A stretch of DNA of 45,352 nt, taken from contig JAHDBF010000005.1 of the NCBI GenBank assembly GCA_020630525.1, positions 1-45,352 of the forward strand, given 5' to 3'. Positions 3,001-33,763 of this stretch are shown here, piece after piece. The first letter of the stretch is position 1. Every line of letters begins with the position of its first letter. The notes beneath the pieces were generated by a model. It was not told the origin of the DNA and searched no databases. It saw only the letters and a list, made by a program, of their open reading frames with translations. Source of the DNA: Saprospiraceae bacterium. GTDB lineage: Bacteria > Bacteroidota > Bacteroidia > Chitinophagales > Saprospiraceae. Made by a program: the position numbers and the translations under genes.

Positions 3001-5723
3001 AATACAGTATTAGGTAAATCGTAAGTACATCCATTCGTAAATGTAACTACTCCATTTACAGTAACTGTACCATTTGTAGCCACTTGTATTTGAGGCATTA
3101 AGTCAGTAGAATTTGTAATACTTCCATTGTCATCAAAAGTCCATGATACGCTTTCGATTTCATATCCATCAGGGAATGTCGGCAGTGATAGATCAACGAT
3201 AAATCCTTCTTCGATGCATTCTGCAACACTGAATCCTATTGATCCATTGATAAAACCACCATCTAATGCTATTTCTTCATTATAGCTAAAGACACATCCA
3301 TTGCTATAGGTAACCGTAGCAGTGATATTTGCATCACCTACTAATCCATTAATGTCTACAGGATTTCCTTGATAATTAAAAGTCTCCCCATCAACTACTA
3401 CAATCCAGTCTACATTTTCTATAGTACCATTAATAACGCTATACAGTTCTAAAATCTCTAAGGTTTGACCTGTTGTCAGTTCACAATCTTCTCCATTACC
3501 ACCAGAGCCATTTCCTCCAGTATTGTCACCTGGTACAGATACAACGATATCAAAATCAGGCGTCAAGTTGTTATTATCATTTCCTTCTGGAATTCCTCCA
3601 TCTCCTAAGATCGAAGGTCCAAAACTATACGTACATCCAGAATCACCATATACAGTTCCAGAGACTGTGGCAAATCCATTGTTAGGTATTTGTAAAGTTG
3701 GATTTAATTCATTTGATAAAATCGTATCTCCATTTATTACAATAATCCAATCAGCACTAGTAACAGTAAAATTTACTGTTGGAGGAGACAAAGTTACTGT
3801 GTAATTTTCTGCTCCACATTCATCGACTACATAACCAAATTCTGGTTCTCCGTTATTACTTCCTGTACCACCACCTAAGTCGAAAGTTTCCGAATTTTCA
3901 AAAACACAACCATTGTCAAATGTAACGATTACAGTTACGATTGCCTGTTCAGTAATGTCAGATCCAATATCTACAGGGCTGCCTTCATATGTCGTGATTA
4001 CGCCATTTTGGTCTACAGACCATGAAACGGAAATTATGTTTCCATCAATTGATCCGCCTGTTGCCATTAGTTCTAAAGTCTGATTATCAGATGAGATACA
4101 TCCACCTTCAGTACCTATCGATGTTCCTGAAATGGTAATATCTAAGTTTGGCACTAACTCATCATATACACTTACCGTTGTATTGGTAGTTTGAGAAGCA
4201 CAACCATTTGTATAATTTACAAAAAATTCTACTTCAAAAAGATCTGCTTCACTCACGATATTTATTGATTCAGTATCATAAGTAGTTGTTGTGCCGTCAG
4301 CAGTAATTGTCCAGTTATAAGAAGATACAACATTATTCCCATGATCAGAATTATCCGAAATAGAAATATTAAAACCATCATCAGTACAAGCAGTCAATGT
4401 CGCATCAAAATCTACGTTAGGGTGTGCTAAATCAAATATAGAAATATTCTCTTGGATATCATTTAGCGTACAACCAGTCGAACCTGTTCCAAATAAATCT
4501 ATGTCTAAAAAGTCATTTTCATTTAATTCTAACAAAACCGTTTGCTCGGTAAATGTTAGTTCTTGGCCATCATTTACTGCAACTGTCCATACAATATCTT
4601 GGACGGTAGTGCCATCAATATCTAGAATGTTATTAGATAATTCTAACTGTACATTTTCGCCATCACATTGAAGAACAGTCAATTCCATTCCCCCAGTGAG
4701 TCCATTTTCATATGCTGCAATCTGTACTTCAAAAGGAGCTGCTGAGCACTCCCCATTATCAGCTTCTAAGTGTACGGTATAATTACCTTCCTCTAAGTAA
4801 GTAACACTTGGGTTTTGCTCAGTTGAACTTGGTGTTAAATTTGGCCAATCAAAATACCAAATTAAATTATCAACATTTTCACTATTGTTTGTAAATGAAT
4901 AAGTTAATCCTGTGCAATTTTCCTCATTCACCTCAAAAGCAATATTTCCGTTTGATCCAGTGCCTCCATTCCCATCAAAACCATTTTGACAGTGACTAGT
5001 AAGAATAGATATTTCGTCTAAGTCCCAAACTGCTATATCTGCAATTTCACCAGCAGCACAGTATGCCGTCAATTCAAAATTAAAAGTCGTTTCTTCTGTG
5101 ATTGTAAATGCTGGATTATCAGTAAAATCAAAAGATTCTAAAGACCATTCTTGAGTTGTAAATTGATCAATTTCATGAAAAACTTCTGTTCCATTTACCA
5201 ATACCCGAACTGCGTATCTTGTTGGATAATTATTAGGTCCAGAAATTCCACCAATGTAACTAAAATTAAAAGGTGCCAATTCATAAAAAGACAATGCCTC
5301 TAACATACTAGGACCAGTGATCGGATCGATCGTTATATCAAATCTTACTGCCGCATCACTACCAGGAGTGTACAGACAATTTGTATCATAACCAACACAC
5401 ATTCCTGCAGAATCACCAATTCCTGGAGTACAAGAGTGAGGATTTGCAGTAGGTTCATTTCTATATAAATGCCCTCCTTCTACGCCTACTTGGATACAAG
5501 GATCATCGACGGACGAGGACGCAGTAAATTCTGTATAGTCAACATTTGTTCCTGTGATGGTATTTGAGATACAATCGTTAAAATCAAATGTTAGTGTAGC
5601 AGCTATGGCGTCACCGGAATTGGTTCCATCTGCACTGGGACACTGAGCAATTAAGTTGATTGAGAAACAACTAATTATTGCTATAATTAAAGTATGTATT
5701 GTCGACATTAGCTTCATAGCCAT
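60..5723 (-). CDS. Giant secreted surface protein with PKD/Ig-like repeats and a gliding-motility-associated C-terminal (CHU_C, T9SS type B sorting) domain
   Basis: 1887 aa; N-terminal signal peptide; PKD-like segment (LIWYFDWPNLTPSSTEQNPSVTYLEEGNYTVHL; WDFGDGQTSTEFMPTNVYDSIGTYTVTL); C-terminus IPNAFSPNQDGNNDVFLVR...YDRWGEEIFRS...GWDGTLNGERLSPDVYAY is the CHU_C signature. Confidence 0.93.
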   Translation of the reverse strand: MAMKLMSTIHTLIIAIISCFSINLIAQCPSADGTNSGDAIAATLTFDFNDCISNTITGTNVDYTEFTASSSVDDPCIQVGVEGGHLYRNEPTANPHSCTPGIGDSAGMCVGYDTNCLYTPGSDAAVRFDITIDPITGPSMLEALSFYELAPFNFSYIGGISGPNNYPTRYAVRVLVNGTEVFHEIDQFTTQEWSLESFDFTDNPAFTITEETTFNFELTAYCAAGEIADIAVWDLDEISILTSHCQNGFDGNGGTGSNGNIAFEVNEENCTGLTYSFTNNSENVDNLIWYFDWPNLTPSSTEQNPSVTYLEEGNYTVHLEADNGECSAAPFEVQIAAYENGLTGGMELTVLQCDGENVQLELSNNILDIDGTTVQDIVWTVAVNDGQELTFTEQTVLLELNENDFLDIDLFGTGSTGCTLNDIQENISIFDLAHPNVDFDATLTACTDDGFNISISDNSDHGNNVVSSYNWTITADGTTTTYDTESINIVSEADLFEVEFFVNYTNGCASQTTNTTVSVYDELVPNLDITISGTSIGTEGGCISSDNQTLELMATGGSIDGNIISVSWSVDQNGVITTYEGSPVDIGSDITEQAIVTVIVTFDNGCVFENSETFDLGGGTGSNNGEPEFGYVVDECGAENYTVTLSPPTVNFTVTSADWIIVINGDTILSNELNPTLQIPNNGFATVSGTVYGDSGCTYSFGPSILGDGGIPEGNDNNNLTPDFDIVVSVPGDNTGGNGSGGNGEDCELTTGQTLEILELYSVINGTIENVDWIVVVDGETFNYQGNPVDINGLVGDANITATVTYSNGCVFSYNEEIALDGGFINGSIGFSVAECIEEGFIVDLSLPTFPDGYEIESVSWTFDDNGSITNSTDLMPQIQVATNGTVTVNGVVTFTNGCTYDLPNTVLGEGGEPGGNDNNNLTPDFEIVIISGGNPGDGSDNGDPDCVLIPQGQVIQINETNSVIDGSIESVEWIITLNGESFPFEGNPVDIGGLIGEATITTVITYSNGCVFEYTQDLELPGGNGVDFEYEVTGCEDDGSVNVTLAPPSNLPEEFEIDSISWNININGVESVSNEINPQINIPVDGSAIIQTTIYFSNGCTVTTNTQTLNESDLVPEISISGQLADGVECGDDPLLYVFTVSPSATEVSWTYMQGGEIINANGNPIQIELTPGETIDISATATFFDNCISSTTQEFTASDGDDSLLPTFNGDPVIDCDGDETSLILDGNPNWNYTWEPTDGLSFNDNINFSDPIVSVTEITTYNVTVTDGSCVSTGSVIVVPEALAIPNIIIGGDGTGLFCDGLVELTIDNAINGVNYIWSTDPNFENIIGEGSTLQWDVDQSGPITVYAIIDGAQNANCDVSSSTEIINGTINLGQDDPLVLCPGDTIAYEIPNNYPDQEITLVWEDHPNLISVDENGVPTVGAGTDDFSINFTASNQYGCTSDEVLNVQIGENQQLSFTFDLVECGETALIFTASGMGQDSILNWDFGDGQTSTEFMPTNVYDSIGTYTVTLEDLSSICPGISASMDITVPSLPEVIIGIGEDTLISENNPVELSATSGSVLDSISWCNAMGEVIGTGANISYEVDSLETVFAKVVDQYGCSDTTSVVVIIDTIIVEPPLCDSLIISGPAEPFGPCAGQEFNLEVNTSIIAGSDFTYVWGPEECIVSGQGESVITVSVDAEPKVFTVQLVDNAEICIDTINLTYEVDPITIEIDITKEGNDPLILGDSCTITVNGIVEGDDILWNTGETTPSIIVYPNNDLNEYSVVVTDENGCQGEASILKPFVTPPCTVPEGIFIPNAFSPNQDGNNDVFLVRSHIIQPENYEFFVYDRWGEEIFRSTGIGNGWDGTLNGERLSPDVYAYCLKATCIDGTEINHSGNVSLIK

Positions 5724-25521: not shown

Positions 25522-26922
25522 TTATGAGAAAAAACATATATCTACTGAATCGAATAATAAGTCGCTTTGATCAAAATTATATATCAAATCATCTATAATA
25601 TATGTTTCACTATTTTGATCAATAATACCATCTGTATCTGAATCTAATTCATCATCTAAATCATTGTATTTTTGTGCGCTATTATAATCTTGCTGATTGA
25701 CTTCTATAATACCATCATTATTGGTGTCCAAATTTAAAGTAGATGAATCCATCACTTCAAAACCGTGATCAATAATTCCATCTGCGTCTTTATCTAAATC
25801 TTTACCTGAATATGAATAAAACTCTTGACTATCATCTATTATGCCATCATTGTGTGAATCTAAAGTTATTGATGAAGAATTTGGGTCTATGTGATTCAAG
25901 CTTTCTGATTCTACGTCAATAATTCCATCATCATTTGAATCTAATAATTTGTCATCAATTTCCTCCAAACTAATCAATGCTTCGGTTGCTTCATCGTTGT
26001 CTTCTTTATACCTTTCTTTAGCATCGTTTTCTACTAGACCAATATTTGATTCAATATTATTTTCATTATCAAATTCAATAGAATGAAACTCATCATTAGT
26101 TATCGTTTTATCTTCCTCTGAAGCAAAATGACCAGAATTGCTTTCGTCAATTTCGTATGAATCTTGATTTATAGAATTGAGATTTTCATCTACCCTATCA
26201 TCATAGGTATTTTCTTCCGTAATAAACCACTCTTCATTTTTAAGTTTATTATTTGGTCTAAGTTCAGATTGTGTTTCTGAATCATTTTCAATTACAATAG
26301 ATTCAGGACTAGACTCTATAAATTCTGGCTCTTCTTTCGTTTCATAATCTATTGATTCACTTTGACTCTCATTACTGACGCCTATATATTCAGAATTGCC
26401 GTCAATTTGTGATTTGTAATCATCAACTGGAATACCATCGTGATTATCATAAGAGTCAGAAATATAAGTACTAAGTTCCTCCTTTAATAAAGTATTGTAT
26501 TTGCTTCCTCGCCATTCGAATTCGCCATAAGGTCCCATTTCATTTCTTGCATTTATAAAAGCATCTTTAAAAGAAAATTCAAATTCGTTGTTTATTTCTT
26601 CTGAGTTGGCAATGTCTTCATTTTCATTTAAATCCACATTTATATCATCTTTTGCAGTTTGATAATCTTCGAGCCAAACATTATCATCTTGTGCCGCGGA
26701 TTTTTCCTGCTGTACTTCGCTAATCATCTCTTCATTAACTTCTATCTCAGCAACATTTATGACTTTCTCTGACGTTGTATTATCAGTACTTTTAAAAGGG
26801 CTATCACATGATTGTGTTAACAAAGGAATAGTAGCACCACCAAAAAGGATTTTTGATGCTTGTTTTTTATCATTCAATAATGATTTGAAAAATTGTTGTT
26901 TTGTGTTTTTTCTATCTTTCAT
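25522..26922 (-). CDS. Very acidic, probably lipid-anchored protein with five DxDxDGIID Ca-binding-like loops
   Basis: 466 aa; N-terminal ILFGGATIPLLTQSCDS lipobox-like; loops DSNDDGIID, DSHNDGIID, DKDADGIID, DTNNDGIIE, DSDTDGIID. Confidence 0.75.
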   Translation of the reverse strand: MKDRKNTKQQFFKSLLNDKKQASKILFGGATIPLLTQSCDSPFKSTDNTTSEKVINVAEIEVNEEMISEVQQEKSAAQDDNVWLEDYQTAKDDINVDLNENEDIANSEEINNEFEFSFKDAFINARNEMGPYGEFEWRGSKYNTLLKEELSTYISDSYDNHDGIPVDDYKSQIDGNSEYIGVSNESQSESIDYETKEEPEFIESSPESIVIENDSETQSELRPNNKLKNEEWFITEENTYDDRVDENLNSINQDSYEIDESNSGHFASEEDKTITNDEFHSIEFDNENNIESNIGLVENDAKERYKEDNDEATEALISLEEIDDKLLDSNDDGIIDVESESLNHIDPNSSSITLDSHNDGIIDDSQEFYSYSGKDLDKDADGIIDHGFEVMDSSTLNLDTNNDGIIEVNQQDYNSAQKYNDLDDELDSDTDGIIDQNSETYIIDDLIYNFDQSDLLFDSVDICFFS

Positions 26923-26926
26923 TCAA

Positions 26927-27511
26927 TTAGAATTTAATATCGCATTTAGAATTATTGCAGGATTTTTTACCTTTCCAATAGGTATAACTTTGATTTATTA
27001 ATGTACTATAACATTTAGGGCATACTAGCTTATTCTCGTATTGTAATTTTAGATTATCTAGCTTTTCCATTTTTTTAATCGCATGATTATCTAAAGAACC
27101 AATAAGCATTGAGAAAAGTCCGATCGAAAGAAAAAGTACATACTTAATGTTATCTGGAATACTTTGTCCAAATTGAAAAAGAATTAATATGGCTAAAATT
27201 ATCATTGCAATTTTTACAAAAATCAATTTTGATTTACTACTGATAATTTCATTTCTATGGTCTTGATAATCTTTGTAGTCCTCTAAAACAGATTGAAAGA
27301 GATTCGTATAATTTGGTTCTATATTTTGATCTAAATTAGTATTTGCCTTTACAACTAAATCTTTGATTTCTATAGGTACTAATTTTAATATTTTTCTTTT
27401 ACCATAGTGTCTATTTGATGATTTCGCATTATAGACATTCCGTCCATCGCAAATTGAGACTCGAGAAAAACTATTTGTATTTTTTGAATATTCGAGAGTT
27501 CCAATTACCAT
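26927..27511 (-). CDS. Membrane protein with C-terminal zinc-ribbon-like motif
   Basis: 194 aa; two hydrophobic segments (IFVKIAMIILAILILFQFG; YVLFLSIGLFSMLIGSL); C-terminal CPKC...CNNSKC. Confidence 0.7.
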   Translation of the reverse strand: MVIGTLEYSKNTNSFSRVSICDGRNVYNAKSSNRHYGKRKILKLVPIEIKDLVVKANTNLDQNIEPNYTNLFQSVLEDYKDYQDHRNEIISSKSKLIFVKIAMIILAILILFQFGQSIPDNIKYVLFLSIGLFSMLIGSLDNHAIKKMEKLDNLKLQYENKLVCPKCYSTLINQSYTYWKGKKSCNNSKCDIKF

Positions 27512-28365
27512 TTCTTATTCCTAGATTTTAATGATGAATTAGAATTACTAAAATACTTTTTCAGAGTTTCATGTATTACTTTAATGTTTAAGTCTTTACG
27601 TAAACGATCTTTATTAAGCATTAAGCAAATAGCATTTTTTATTTCTAAAGGCATTTTTGATTCTGAAAATGTTAAGGTACTATTTATCAATTTTTGAATA
27701 TTCTTTTCTTTCAATTGATTCCCACCCAAAATCATTATAGGGCATTTATTTCCGTATAACTCGAACATAATTAATGCCAAAGACCACAGGTCACTTTGAT
27801 AAGATGCAATCCCGTATTTAAGAAATTCTGGAGAACGATAATTTAAGTATTTATTTAAAAGAACTTGGCGTCTATTTGATTGATTAGGCCCATTCAAATT
27901 TGATATTATTGGAATTAAATCTCTTCCATTTTTTGACATTAGTACATTGTACTTATTAATGTCACCAATAATTACCGACGCATTATGCAAGTGAGTAATT
28001 CCAGCTATTAGCCCATTTAACACTCTATTCTTTTGATATAATGTTAATTCAGATGACCCAAAATAATCAGACAACGTATTACTGCAATCAATAGATAATT
28101 CTGTGAAATGTTGGCTTTTCTTTTTAAAACTAATTTTAAAACACTTAGTTACGTCAACAATATTTTTATGCTTAGAAATACTTTTTAGTAATGAATACTC
28201 TTTGATAAGAAATTTTCGATGATCTTTGGTAATAGGTGTTTTGAGTGTAACCTTTTCTTTAGTATCCGACTTTACAACTTCGTAATAAATATAGTTGTCA
28301 ACTATTTTTTTACCATTCGTACTTAGCGGAAATTGATATGACTTTAGAAAATTTATAAACTTCAT
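27505..28365 (-). CDS. Protein kinase-like protein (probable pseudokinase or atypical kinase)
   Basis: 286 aa; VTLKTP + E helix, HLHNASVIIGDINKYNVLM, YRSPEFLKYGIASYQSDLWSLALIMFELYGNKCPI; DFG and Gly-rich loop not recognisable. Confidence 0.78.
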   Translation of the reverse strand: MKFINFLKSYQFPLSTNGKKIVDNYIYYEVVKSDTKEKVTLKTPITKDHRKFLIKEYSLLKSISKHKNIVDVTKCFKISFKKKSQHFTELSIDCSNTLSDYFGSSELTLYQKNRVLNGLIAGITHLHNASVIIGDINKYNVLMSKNGRDLIPIISNLNGPNQSNRRQVLLNKYLNYRSPEFLKYGIASYQSDLWSLALIMFELYGNKCPIMILGGNQLKEKNIQKLINSTLTFSESKMPLEIKNAICLMLNKDRLRKDLNIKVIHETLKKYFSNSNSSLKSRNKKW

Positions 28366-28473: not shown

Positions 28474-29205
28474 TTACCGAACATCTATTAATTTGGTAAT
28501 AACGGCATCTTTTTTCCTTACAGAAACTGGAATATTTGTACCTGTCGTTAATACTATTACGCCTTCTTTATCATAACTATCTGCAAAATCAATATTAACC
28601 AAATAGGATTGGTGACAACGGACAAAATTAGCAGGAAGCCCTATATCATACTCTTTAATATTTTTAGAAGTAATAAACTCTCGACCATCAGTTAAAAAGA
28701 ATTTTGTATAGCTGCCTTCTGACTTGCAGTATGTCAATTCATTTAACCTCACCACTTGATATTTATCGTGAAAATGTAAGACTATTTTATCAATTGTGCC
28801 TACTAATTTTTTCTTACTTATCTCAAGCCTTTCTTTTAATAAAAGTTCTTTTTTTAAGTCTATCTTTTGAATTGCAGATTTTAATTCAAAAGAAGAAATA
28901 GGTTTTAGTAAATAATCAATCGCACCAACTTTCAGGGCCTGAAGTGCATATTCGTGGTAAGCAGTAATAAAAATTACATTAACTCCTTCTAATTCAATTC
29001 TATCCAAAAAATCAAATCCAGTACCATCTGGCATATTAATATCTAAAAAAATTAGATTTGGCTTGGTAGATCTAGTGACTACAATAGCGTCTGAGATGTT
29101 TTCACACTCGCCAACAATCTCTAGAGTATCTGCATGTGCTTCTAACAAACTTCTAAGTCCTGATCTAACAAAAGGTTCATCATCAACAATAAGTGATCTT
29201 ATCAT
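28474..29205 (-). CDS. LytTR-family response regulator
   Basis: 243 aa; receiver domain (SLIVDDEPFVRSGL...LIFLDINMPDGTGFDFL...FITAYHEYALQALKVGAIDYLLKPI) and LytTR domain (LTYCKSEGSYTKFFLTDGREFITSKNIKEY...FVRCHQSYLVNI). Confidence 0.95.
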   Translation of the reverse strand: MIRSLIVDDEPFVRSGLRSLLEAHADTLEIVGECENISDAIVVTRSTKPNLIFLDINMPDGTGFDFLDRIELEGVNVIFITAYHEYALQALKVGAIDYLLKPISSFELKSAIQKIDLKKELLLKERLEISKKKLVGTIDKIVLHFHDKYQVVRLNELTYCKSEGSYTKFFLTDGREFITSKNIKEYDIGLPANFVRCHQSYLVNIDFADSYDKEGVIVLTTGTNIPVSVRKKDAVITKLIDVR

Positions 29206-30680
29206 ACTATTCTTTTTATTGGTATTGCTAAGGTTACAATTGTGCCAGTACTTTCTTCTATGTTATTAATCTCAAATTTACCCTTAGTATTTAATTGCTG
29301 ATTTAAAATATTAATTCTTTCGGAAGTTATCTTTTGCGAAAGTGAATTTTTAGTAGCATTAATAGATTTGAATTCTGGATAATAGCCCTTACCATTATCT
29401 ACAATTTTACATTGTAGCAAATCATTACTAATTTCCATCTTAACTGTAATGAGTCCTTTTTTATCTAATCCACTTATTCCGTGTTCAATTGCATTTTCAA
29501 CAAAAGGTTGTATCATCATTGGAGGAATACACATTATACTGGAATTGATTGCAGGATCAACTTCAATTGAGTAATTGAATTTATTAAAAAAACGTAATTG
29601 CTGTAATTTAAAATACGAATGTAAGGTATCCAACTCTGAATCTATAGATACGAATTTTTTATACGCATTACTAAAAACTTGAAACAATAACTTAGAAAGC
29701 ATCTCTAAATATTCAACTGCTTGGACACTCTTCCCTCTAAGTACATGTGAATGAATTGCAGTCAGAGCGTTAAAAATAAAATGTGGATTCATTTGTTCTT
29801 GTAGAATGCTTTGTTCTAGTTCAATAGTTTGATTTTCCAATTGTTTTTTAACAATAGAAATTTTATAATTGTAAATTATGTAGTAAAACATCATTGACAA
29901 GAATAATATGATTCCTACAATTCCTATATTTTGAATTTTATACCTTCTTAATTCATTTAATCGATTTTTTTCTTGAATCAGTTTATATGATGTATGGCTT
30001 GTGCGAATTTTATTTATTTTATTATTAATTAAGCTATTAAGGATACTCTGCTTCTTGTTTTTATATAGTTCCTGATAAAGCTGTGCATTCAATATTTCAT
30101 TATTAAAAGTATAGTATTCATAATAAGTACTATATAGATTTTCATACTCCGTACCTCCTAAATATTTCGCATTTGTATGATGGATTGAATCCATTAAAAA
30201 AGATAAATACTCCTTTTCTGATTCAAACTCATGCTCATTTAGTATATATTTTTTGACTAAATTTAAATTCTTATTTTCAGTAATTCTAAAATTGTTTTTA
30301 AGAATATTAAAGACGAAATCGAATAAACTATTTGCCTTCTGATCAAGATCAATAACTTCATACAGTTTTGCTATTTGAGTAAGGTCATTGACATTCATCA
30401 CTAGTTCATCATACTGCTTACTAGGCTTTTCAACGATATTAGATTTAATAATTCTTTCTAGATTATTCAATTCTCTTACAAACTTTACATCATTTTGTAA
30501 TTCCAATTTCTTGTCTGATGATTTTATCACTTCAATCACCGATTCAAATTGTCCGGTTGATAAGGAATTATATATGGAGTCCATCGAAAATTCACTCATG
30601 CAAAACAATCTACTAGCTAATAGAATATATAATAGGCTAAGCGAGATTTTTTTTATTGTATGATTGGAAAATATTTTCAC
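29202..30680 (-). CDS. LytS/YehU-like sensor histidine kinase (His_kinase + HATPase)
   Basis: 492 aa; signal peptide, TM segment, QEQMNPHFIFNALTAIHSHVL, QPFVENAIEHGISG, IVDNGKGYYPEF. Confidence 0.93.
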   Translation of the reverse strand: MKIFSNHTIKKISLSLLYILLASRLFCMSEFSMDSIYNSLSTGQFESVIEVIKSSDKKLELQNDVKFVRELNNLERIIKSNIVEKPSKQYDELVMNVNDLTQIAKLYEVIDLDQKANSLFDFVFNILKNNFRITENKNLNLVKKYILNEHEFESEKEYLSFLMDSIHHTNAKYLGGTEYENLYSTYYEYYTFNNEILNAQLYQELYKNKKQSILNSLINNKINKIRTSHTSYKLIQEKNRLNELRRYKIQNIGIVGIILFLSMMFYYIIYNYKISIVKKQLENQTIELEQSILQEQMNPHFIFNALTAIHSHVLRGKSVQAVEYLEMLSKLLFQVFSNAYKKFVSIDSELDTLHSYFKLQQLRFFNKFNYSIEVDPAINSSIMCIPPMMIQPFVENAIEHGISGLDKKGLITVKMEISNDLLQCKIVDNGKGYYPEFKSINATKNSLSQKITSERINILNQQLNTKGKFEINNIEESTGTIVTLAIPIKRIV

Positions 30681-32419
30681 TTTAGTCCTTGATTATTTAG
30701 TATTGGGATTTTTAATAAATATTTAAAATCATCGTTAGACATAGATTCACCAATTGATATATTTTTTTTGCGGTCGAATACTTCGGTTATATTTTCCAAT
30801 CTTTGGATTGCCGCTTCCATCTCATCGGAAATAGAAAGTTCGGATTTTTCTAATACATATTTATCTCCATGTTTTTGATCAATAATTAGACATACAATAT
30901 TATTTTCCTCTTCCACAAAATTAATTTCATATTTAAAGTTTGTATTTGAATTTTGCTTTCCAATTTCTTGAAGATTTTCAACAAAAGGTTCTAGTATCAT
31001 AGAAGGCACAAAAATATTGGCAGAATCAATTTCATTTGAAATATTCGTTTTTAATTCAAAATTAAAATTAGGGTTTAACATTTTTAGTTTAAAATATTGA
31101 TTTATTGCTTCTATCTCTTCATCTAAAGGCCGAATAATTTCTCTTGAATTTTCTAAATTAAGCCTAATGGTTTTTGAAAATGTAGATAAATAATCCGCAG
31201 CTATTTTATTTTTACCTTCTTCAATAAATTGAACAATATTGTCTATTTCTCTAAAGATAAAATTTGAACTTAATTTTAACTTGAGTAACTTTTGCTCTTT
31301 TTTCAAAACATTGTTTAATGATACTTCTTTTACTTTATCTTGCCGAACTTGTTTTATTTTCAATAAGAATATCCCAAACAAGAGACCACCTAATGTTAAA
31401 ATTACATTCCGCGTCAATCTAGCAAATTTTAATGCATTTTTCTTTTCTTTAATGATTTCTTCCTTTTCTAACCCAATAGTATAATTGACTTCTTCAGTGC
31501 CCTTTGAAATTTCATCTTCAAAATTTTCGTCTATTAATTGTTGTTTTAGCACCATAAACTTTTTCACGGAATCCATCTCCCCAATAGATGTATACGATTG
31601 CATCAAGCCATCGTAGATTAGCGTTTTCAAGTCTTGCGGAATTTGATTATGAAAATAATTTCGACAAGAGTCTAACATTTCAATTTTCTTTTTAATCAAA
31701 GAAGGGGACTTATGATATCCTGCAACATTGAAATAACTTATCGCGATAATTTTCGCATCAGGAGTTTCTTTGCTTTTTGCAACCTCGATCGATTTGAGTC
31801 CGTAAATTATACTGCTATCAAGTTTACCCAAATTACGATAATACCTTGCCATATTATTATAGAAATACCCACTCAAAGGTTGCTTAGATTCAATTGAAAA
31901 TCTTTTGGCTTTTTCCAAAAGCTTAAATGCCTTTTTCTCACCACCTCTTTTATTCTCCATGGTACTCAAATTAATAAAAGACCGAATTAACATCGTAGTG
32001 TCTTTTAAAGATGAGTACACATTTATAGCTTTATTTAAAAACAATATAGACGTATCTATATTTCCAATTCTTAACTCAAAATGTGATTTATTCAAAAAAG
32101 CGCTTGCACTTAATGGACTGACTGTGTCAGACAAATTTAATTTTATTCGTTCGTATGTAATTTTTGCATTTGAAAAATCCGACAAAGAATTGTAGGCTTT
32201 AACCAATTCGATCAAATATTTCGTTTCTGATTGAGGATAATTTTGATCGACATACAATTCTTTTATTAGAATATCTTTTACTTCATTATAATTATTTTCT
32301 GCTATCAATGAGTCAATCTTTAAATCAAATTGACTTTCTTGACAATGTAGAAGATTGCCAATACTAAGTATCAAGAATAAACTTAAAGAATAAATAACAT
32401 CATTTTGAATTTGTCTCAT
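30677..32419 (-). CDS. TPR-sensor LytS-like histidine kinase homologue, catalytically degenerate
   Basis: 580 aa; TPR region, TM (VILTLGGLLFGIFLLKI), then LKLSSNFIFREIDNIVQFI...EEIEAINQYFKLKMLNPNF...VPSMILEPFVENLQEIGKQ aligning with the neighbouring kinase but lacking the His and G-boxes. Confidence 0.85.
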   Translation of the reverse strand: MRQIQNDVIYSLSLFLILSIGNLLHCQESQFDLKIDSLIAENNYNEVKDILIKELYVDQNYPQSETKYLIELVKAYNSLSDFSNAKITYERIKLNLSDTVSPLSASAFLNKSHFELRIGNIDTSILFLNKAINVYSSLKDTTMLIRSFINLSTMENKRGGEKKAFKLLEKAKRFSIESKQPLSGYFYNNMARYYRNLGKLDSSIIYGLKSIEVAKSKETPDAKIIAISYFNVAGYHKSPSLIKKKIEMLDSCRNYFHNQIPQDLKTLIYDGLMQSYTSIGEMDSVKKFMVLKQQLIDENFEDEISKGTEEVNYTIGLEKEEIIKEKKNALKFARLTRNVILTLGGLLFGIFLLKIKQVRQDKVKEVSLNNVLKKEQKLLKLKLSSNFIFREIDNIVQFIEEGKNKIAADYLSTFSKTIRLNLENSREIIRPLDEEIEAINQYFKLKMLNPNFNFELKTNISNEIDSANIFVPSMILEPFVENLQEIGKQNSNTNFKYEINFVEEENNIVCLIIDQKHGDKYVLEKSELSISDEMEAAIQRLENITEVFDRKKNISIGESMSNDDFKYLLKIPILNNQGLK

Positions 32420-32512
32420 TACTGATTCAGAGCTAATAGCTCAATAATATATTTAATGAATTACTTTTACAATAATAAGCGTAATGCACTTAGTTATATT
32501 TCCAAAATTAAA

Positions 32513-32563
32513 ACTGCAAACACTTAATTGATAATCGAAAGAGAATGGTTGATAATCGTAAGA
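32513..32563 (-). promoter_or_regulatory. Candidate LytTR-type operator and promoter of the sensor/regulator operon
   Basis: TTGATAATCGAAAGA (32528-32542) and TTGATAATCGTAAGA (32549-32563), 14/15 identical, 21-bp period; adjacent minus-strand TAATTTTG (32513-32520) matches the TAnnTTTG -7 consensus. Confidence 0.5.
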
Positions 32564-32875: not shown

Positions 32876-33763
32876 TTAACTAAAGCTAGGAGAAACAACT
32901 ACTTCCTTTGTCTCACGACTATAAACATAAAATCCTTCACCAGATTTTCTTCCTAACTTTCCTGCTTGTACCATATTAACCAATAATGGACATGCAGCAT
33001 ACTTGGGTTGCTTAAAACCATCGTAGAGAACTTCTAAAATAGAGAGACAAACATCCAAACCTATAAAGTCTGCAAGTTGCAACGGACCCATCGGATGAGC
33101 CATTCCTAATTTCATAACTGTATCGATTTCTTCTACGCCAGCCACGCCTTCAAACAAAGCAGAAATTGCTTCATTTATCATTGGAAGTAAGATCCTATTG
33201 GCGACAAATCCTGGATAATCATTTACTTCGACAGGTACTTTTGATAAGTCTTTTGACAAGTCCATAATTGAATTCGTGATCTCATCAGAAGTGGCATATC
33301 CTTTTATCACTTCCACCAATTTCATCACTGGAACAGGATTCATAAAATGCATTCCTATGACTTTATCTGGTCTTTCTGTTGCACTTGCAATTTTTGTTAT
33401 TGATATAGAAGAAGTATTGCTTGCCAATATACAATCTGGTTTACAAAACTTATCTAAGTCACTGAATATACTCAGTTTTAAAGATTCGTTTTCTGTTGCT
33501 GCTTCAATCACTAAATCCGCATCTTTTACACATTCTTCTAGGTTTGTACCTGTCTGAATATTTTTGATCGTAGACTCCTTAATTTCTTCTGTAATTTTCT
33601 CTTTGGCAACCATTCTCCAGAGGTTTTTGTCAATGGTTTCAATTGCTTTAGACAATGCATTTTCAGAAATATCACATAGCGTCACATTATAATTATTCAT
33701 TGCAAAAACATGCGCTATCCCATTTCCCATCGTACCTGCTCCAATTACCGTTATATTTTTCAT
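32876..33763 (-). CDS. hbd: 3-hydroxybutyryl-CoA dehydrogenase / 3-hydroxyacyl-CoA dehydrogenase
   Basis: 295 aa; ITVIGAGTMGNGIAHVFAMNNY, LASNTSSISITKIA, GMHFMNPVPVMKLVEVI, PGFVANRILLPMINEA, GLDVCLSILEVL. Confidence 0.95.
   Translation of the reverse strand: MKNITVIGAGTMGNGIAHVFAMNNYNVTLCDISENALSKAIETIDKNLWRMVAKEKITEEIKESTIKNIQTGTNLEECVKDADLVIEAATENESLKLSIFSDLDKFCKPDCILASNTSSISITKIASATERPDKVIGMHFMNPVPVMKLVEVIKGYATSDEITNSIMDLSKDLSKVPVEVNDYPGFVANRILLPMINEAISALFEGVAGVEEIDTVMKLGMAHPMGPLQLADFIGLDVCLSILEVLYDGFKQPKYAACPLLVNMVQAGKLGRKSGEGFYVYSRETKEVVVSPSFS

Follow-up and report, generated by a model that had tools for sequence, protein, structure and literature searches.

A 21-bp direct repeat upstream of a kinase-kinase-LytTR operon of a Saprospiraceae bacterium as the predicted operator of the operon's own regulator

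The binding sites of LytTR regulators have a common architecture, namely repeats of 9-11 nt with an 11-13-nt spacer, and no common consensus (PMC4847170). In the LytTR regulatory systems (LRS), of which HdrR/BrsR of Streptococcus mutans are examples, autoregulatory LytTR 9-mers with N12 are located upstream of the operon promoter, the repeats typically end ~10 nt before the -35, and positive feedback via such repeats has been documented; LRS-like operons of Bacteroides carry TCCGGTATTCA-N11-ACCGGAAATCA (PMC6193735). In Escherichia coli, YpdB binds the direct repeat GGCATTTCAT, and both YpdB and BtsR are REC-LytTR regulators with a His_kinase-domain kinase (PMC4847170, PMC5552118). AgrA of Staphylococcus aureus likewise has a LytTR domain, which binds direct repeats upstream of a promoter (agr P2/P3; PMC4227749). 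We found little literature on LytTR operators in Bacteroidota. Here we describe a repeat pair of this architecture in a 45,352-nucleotide stretch of Saprospiraceae DNA (the window), where it precedes a three-gene minus-strand operon that runs from 32419 to 28474. The genes around the pair are as follows.

32876-33763, same strand as the operon: 3-hydroxyacyl-CoA dehydrogenase, the upstream gene, with its 3' end toward the site
30677..32419, minus strand: first gene, 580-aa TPR-TM-His_kinase protein (Pfam, alignment, TM-like segments)
29202..30680, minus strand: LytS-type sensor histidine kinase, 492 aa, with a canonical NPHFIFN H-box (Pfam, alignment)
28474..29205, minus strand: REC-LytTR response regulator, 243 aa, the presumed binder (Pfam)

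The genes for the REC-LytTR protein and the LytS-type kinase thus lie directly downstream of the repeat, with overlapping gene ends. The third gene product matches Response_reg (8.7e-25) and LytTR (PF04397, 7.5e-14) in Pfam, and its best NCBIfam model is BtsR, under the cut-off. In the 580-aa protein, which has a His_kinase domain, the H-box is degenerate in the alignment (SSNFIFREID, compared with NPHFIFN in two relatives), with Asn386 at the position of the His that would accept the phosphoryl group, and the 492-aa protein is therefore the likely phosphodonor. By its sequence, the 580-aa protein has the appearance of a pseudokinase that partners the canonical kinase of the second gene. Its G-box is also degraded, and it contains TPR repeats.

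What the locus has in common with the LRS is a pair of direct repeats, 9-11-mers separated by N11-13, that immediately precedes the presumed promoter of the operon encoding the regulator itself. In contrast to LRS regulators, which pair with a membrane inhibitor, the present regulator is associated with a pair of histidine-kinase genes and has a REC domain, and the half-site sequence of the window differs from the published set and scores poorly with it. With a REC domain in the regulator and two His_kinase-domain genes ahead of it, the system falls outside the LRS sensu PMC6193735, which are defined by control through a membrane inhibitor instead of a kinase. The combination of a His_kinase-domain kinase and a REC-LytTR regulator is shared with YpdB/BtsR; however, the sites described for those systems precede transporter target genes and are unlike in sequence (PMC4847170, PMC5552118), and the operon studied here encodes an additional TPR kinase-like protein without a phospho-His. 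The LytTR part of the regulator aligns weakly with AgrA (3bs1, E 0.047), with RCH.S..VN and the final SVR kept, whereas the residue following RCH is Gln instead of the Asn of AgrA, and the half-site differs as well (PMC4227749).

The repeat lies in the 456-bp intergenic region in front of the operon. It consists of the 15-mers TTGATAATCGAAAGA (32528-32542) and TTGATAATCGTAAGA (32549-32563), which are identical at 14 of 15 positions and start 21 bp apart, just as an earlier note on this DNA had described them. On the minus strand, and hence in the orientation of the operon, the element reads TCTTACGATTATCAA-N6-TCTTTCGATTATCAA and spans 36 bp.

32549..32563, minus strand: distal half-site TCTTACGATTATCAA, 9-mer core TACGATTAT at 32560..32552 (sequence; the pair is unique genome-wide)
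32528..32542, minus strand: proximal half-site TCTTTCGATTATCAA, 9-mer core TTCGATTAT at 32539..32531 (sequence; 21-bp enrichment at LytTR operons)

The two cores are separated by 12 nt and repeat with a period of 21, which fits the range of 9-11-nt repeats and 11-13-nt spacers; the LytTR-like geometry proposed in the earlier note thus holds and corresponds to that of experimentally known sites (PMC4847170, PMC6193735). The near end of the repeat (32528) is separated by 108 bases from the ATG at 32419, in agreement with the distance of 109 bp that had been given to the first start codon. Because the upstream gene is on the same strand and turns its 3' end to the site, the orientation of the genes implies that the repeat could serve only the sensor operon, from a promoter-proximal position.

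Pairs of this quality are rare. In dinucleotide shuffles of the 456-bp region, a pair with at least 14 of 15 identical positions occurred at period 21 in 2 of 2000 shuffles, and at any period between 16 and 49 in 10 of 2000. A genome-wide scan, which the earlier note had proposed as a check, found the 10-base core pair, with N11 between the cores and no mismatch, at a single place in 3.46 Mb, namely upstream of the sensor operon. The next-best matches to the core pair have 3 mismatches and are mostly coding, and single 15-mers with one mismatch have 4 further copies in the genome, every one within ORFs. No second clear copy of the repeat was found in the rest of the window, for example before the downstream kinase gene.

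Conservation at orthologous operons could not be used as evidence, as none of 148 further genomes from the family had an ortholog of the 580-aa kinase at E<=1e-40, only domain-level matches and no ortholog occurred in five congeners, and a search of genome contigs with the 492-aa kinase gave a single distant locus. The class of LytTR operons was therefore tested de novo instead. In six congeneric genomes, every LytTR gene was located together with its surroundings, operon heads were called, and direct repeats in the upstream non-coding regions were given a score at each period from 12 to 49 (38 periods). In this congeneric set, period 21 had a mean z of 0.96 against -0.03 (sd 0.14) at the other periods, and 9 regions scored at least 15 at period 21, compared with 0.5 on average at the others. 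With the window excluded, period 21 was among the top three of the 38 periods in 35 of 102 LytTR regions (expected 8.1). A second set of 48 regions, drawn from sixty loci in other genera of the family, gave 12 such cases (expected 3.8). Combined, this amounts to 47 of 150 regions where 12 are expected, with a nominal P of 9e-17 that overstates independence, because the regions of congeners may be partly orthologous. The score of the window pair was reached or exceeded in 4 of the 150 other LytTR upstream regions.

At exactly 21 bp, pairs of G+C-containing 6-mers were present in 20 of 102 LytTR regions, whereas periods 17-20 and 22-25 gave 0-4; among other intergenic regions, taken from the genome of the window, 6 of 108 had such a pair. 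The neighbouring intergenic regions, which were to have served as negative controls, proved to contain 21-bp pairs, and an unrelated set was therefore fetched. The smaller excess away from LytTR genes may come from further LytTR targets or have a different cause. Taken together, these data show a specific enrichment of 21-bp direct repeats in front of LytTR operons, both in the genus and in the family.

The half-sites vary by regulator (TTCACCGA, TTCAGAACAAA, TACAGTTCAGA and CTTAACACCT, among others), a diversity that is to be expected given that LytTR sites have no consensus (PMC4847170). The half-site of the window reads [A/T]CGATTAT in the orientation of the operon, and similar pairs were found at other LytTR loci:

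G149:C78: ACCGATAAT/ACCGATTAT, beside a LytTR-kinase pair
G017:C66: ACCGATGAT/ACCGATTATTAACTAAG, similar in sequence to the window's CGATTATCAATTAAG
L211: TACGAATAAT/AACGAATTAT
L188: ACGAATCTACA/ACGAATATACA
L185: TCGAATATGAA/ACGAAAATGAA

The first of these sites is situated between the LytTR-kinase pair and the gene for a 2718-aa LamG / T9SS-sorted protein. Allowing at most one mismatch, CGAWTAT pairs with a period of 21 bp were seen on the operon strand in 5 regions and on the opposite strand in 0, while the 17 other periods tested gave totals of 1 and 3; as the pattern was chosen from the window, this count serves as a consistency check. At up to two mismatches, CGAWTAT showed no clear gain over permuted patterns. 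A matrix built from published LytTR operons, which are mostly Gram-positive, gave the pair 0.4 bits and rank 5 among 854 intergenic positions.

With regard to the promoter, two candidates on the minus strand were considered.

32503..32510, minus strand: candidate -7 element TAATTTTG, put forward in the earlier note, 17 nt downstream of the repeat (sequence only)
32489..32520, minus strand: alternative promoter TTTG (32520..32517)-N20-TAACTAAG (32496..32489), proposed from sequence

The distance of 7 bp that had been given between the repeat and TAATTTTG is incorrect, since 17 nt (32527..32511) lie between them. As to the -33, for which the earlier note had seen no recognisable TTG, a TTTG is present at 32520..32517, but a gap of 6 nt places it too close to TAATTTTG to act as its -33. 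If TAATTTTG acted as the -7, the -33 region would overlap the proximal half-site, and a repeat in this position would suit a factor that replaces or blocks -33 contacts. In the alternative promoter, the TTTG starts 10 nt past the proximal 9-mer, resembling the 10-11-nt rule (PMC6193735), and TAACTAAG is a poor -7 with a 4/6 match to TAnnTTTG. An alignment for TAnnTTTG behind 26 strong repeat sites gave no shared -7 position, and matches in a sigma-70 scan were no commoner than in shuffles.

Given its geometry, the 21-bp enrichment at LytTR operons and the occurrence of some half-sites like its own elsewhere, all of which support the operator reading of the earlier note, the repeat pair is likely to be a LytTR operator of the operon's own 243-aa regulator, and the operon is probably autoregulated. 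Mechanistically, the 492-aa LytS-type kinase would phosphorylate the 243-aa REC-LytTR protein, and a dimer of the phosphorylated regulator would fill both half-sites, which are oriented in the same way as the operon, on one face of the helix, 21 bp corresponding to two turns. Once bound, the regulator would control how the kinase-kinase-regulator operon is transcribed, with positive feedback as the most likely mode; activation is favoured here from the class of the regulator, because the sequence is undecided and the related sites have no -7 position in common.

The alternative that the operator is read by one or more other LytTR proteins of the same genome, so that the operon is cross-regulated and not autoregulated, seems unlikely to us. 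The genome has 17 LytTR matches, and similar CGAT-type half-sites adjoin LytTR proteins that are merely ~31% identical to that of the window, so that the type of half-site does not track the closest protein. However, the site directly precedes an operon that encodes a LytTR regulator, autoregulation via such repeats has been described before (PMC6193735), and no equally good pair of the same sequence stands before other LytTR operons of the genome. It is quite improbable that the pair instead serves as operator for a regulator of another class that uses direct repeats over two turns, or is a promoter-embedded element without a link to LytTR: the residual excess away from known LytTR genes and the lack of a fixed promoter would agree with such an element, but the excess is ~3x stronger at LytTR operons and is replicated there in other genera. 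Chance, or a functionless remnant of a 21-bp tandem duplication, is very improbable despite the AT-rich region, the presence of two copies only and the many intergenic regions that were in view when the pair was picked out, considering the shuffles at period 21, the few LytTR upstream regions that match its score, and the difference between GAATGG, which lies between the copies, and CTAAAC, the following 6 bases, which argues against a plain tandem duplication.

A LytTR operator read by the 243-aa regulator would make this a known type of switch, and comparable pairs are carried by related operons across the family. We tentatively suggest, at somewhat below even confidence, that each LytTR regulator of the Saprospiraceae has private half-sites on one fixed 21-bp scaffold, at its own operon and often at adjacent targets. 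If this is true, finding repeats could be enough to assign operators and targets to many LytTR regulators that are as yet uncharacterised. The 21-bp signature offers an inexpensive way into the LytTR regulons of a family whose searched genomes are rich in such regulators, and a candidate operator is now given for an uncharacterised kinase-kinase-LytTR system.

Further repeat sites were noted in related genomes. At L122 (G150:C57), the exact pair TTCAGAACAAA-N10-TTCAGAACAAA occurs twice on the contig, near 3237 and 6052, with one copy reverse-complemented; both precede neighbours of the LytTR gene, and the locus is likely a small LytTR regulon. At L221 (G053:C43), TCCGTTACTCC-N10-ACCATTACTCC precedes the LytTR operon, and a neighbouring gene has the inverted form of this repeat in front of it, which suggests a single regulator for both.

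In the genome of the window itself, two 21-bp pairs with GATNANCAA half-sites are found elsewhere (G000:C7:3784-3880, L081; intergenic match 3849-3879), in front of a gene for a 122-aa secreted protein. This possible second target is a weak lead, because the GATTAACAA/CTTAACAA part of the site is also kept in a congener without a detected ortholog of the operon's first gene, and the pattern was refined post hoc. The remaining near matches to the repeat pair in this genome are coding or, on C49, beyond the last called ORF. The smaller 21-bp excess in intergenic regions of the same genome away from known LytTR genes (6 of 108; L241-L260, L081-L084) includes, for example, ACTCGACAAAC/ACTCGACCAAC at L250 (17762-17971), and such repeats may mark further regulator targets.

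Downstream of the operon, the minus-strand stretch 26927-28365 encodes, just past the regulator, a Ser/Thr-kinase-like protein (Pfam Pkinase, 27505-28365) in which SNL appears to take the place of the DFG motif. After it comes a 194-aa protein that has two TM segments and, at its C-terminus, a zinc-ribbon-like CxxC pair. In addition, a 466-aa acidic protein without a Pfam family (25522-26922, minus strand) contains several D-x-(N/D)-x-DGII(D/E) repeats, which resemble calcium-binding dockerin or thrombospondin-3 loops.
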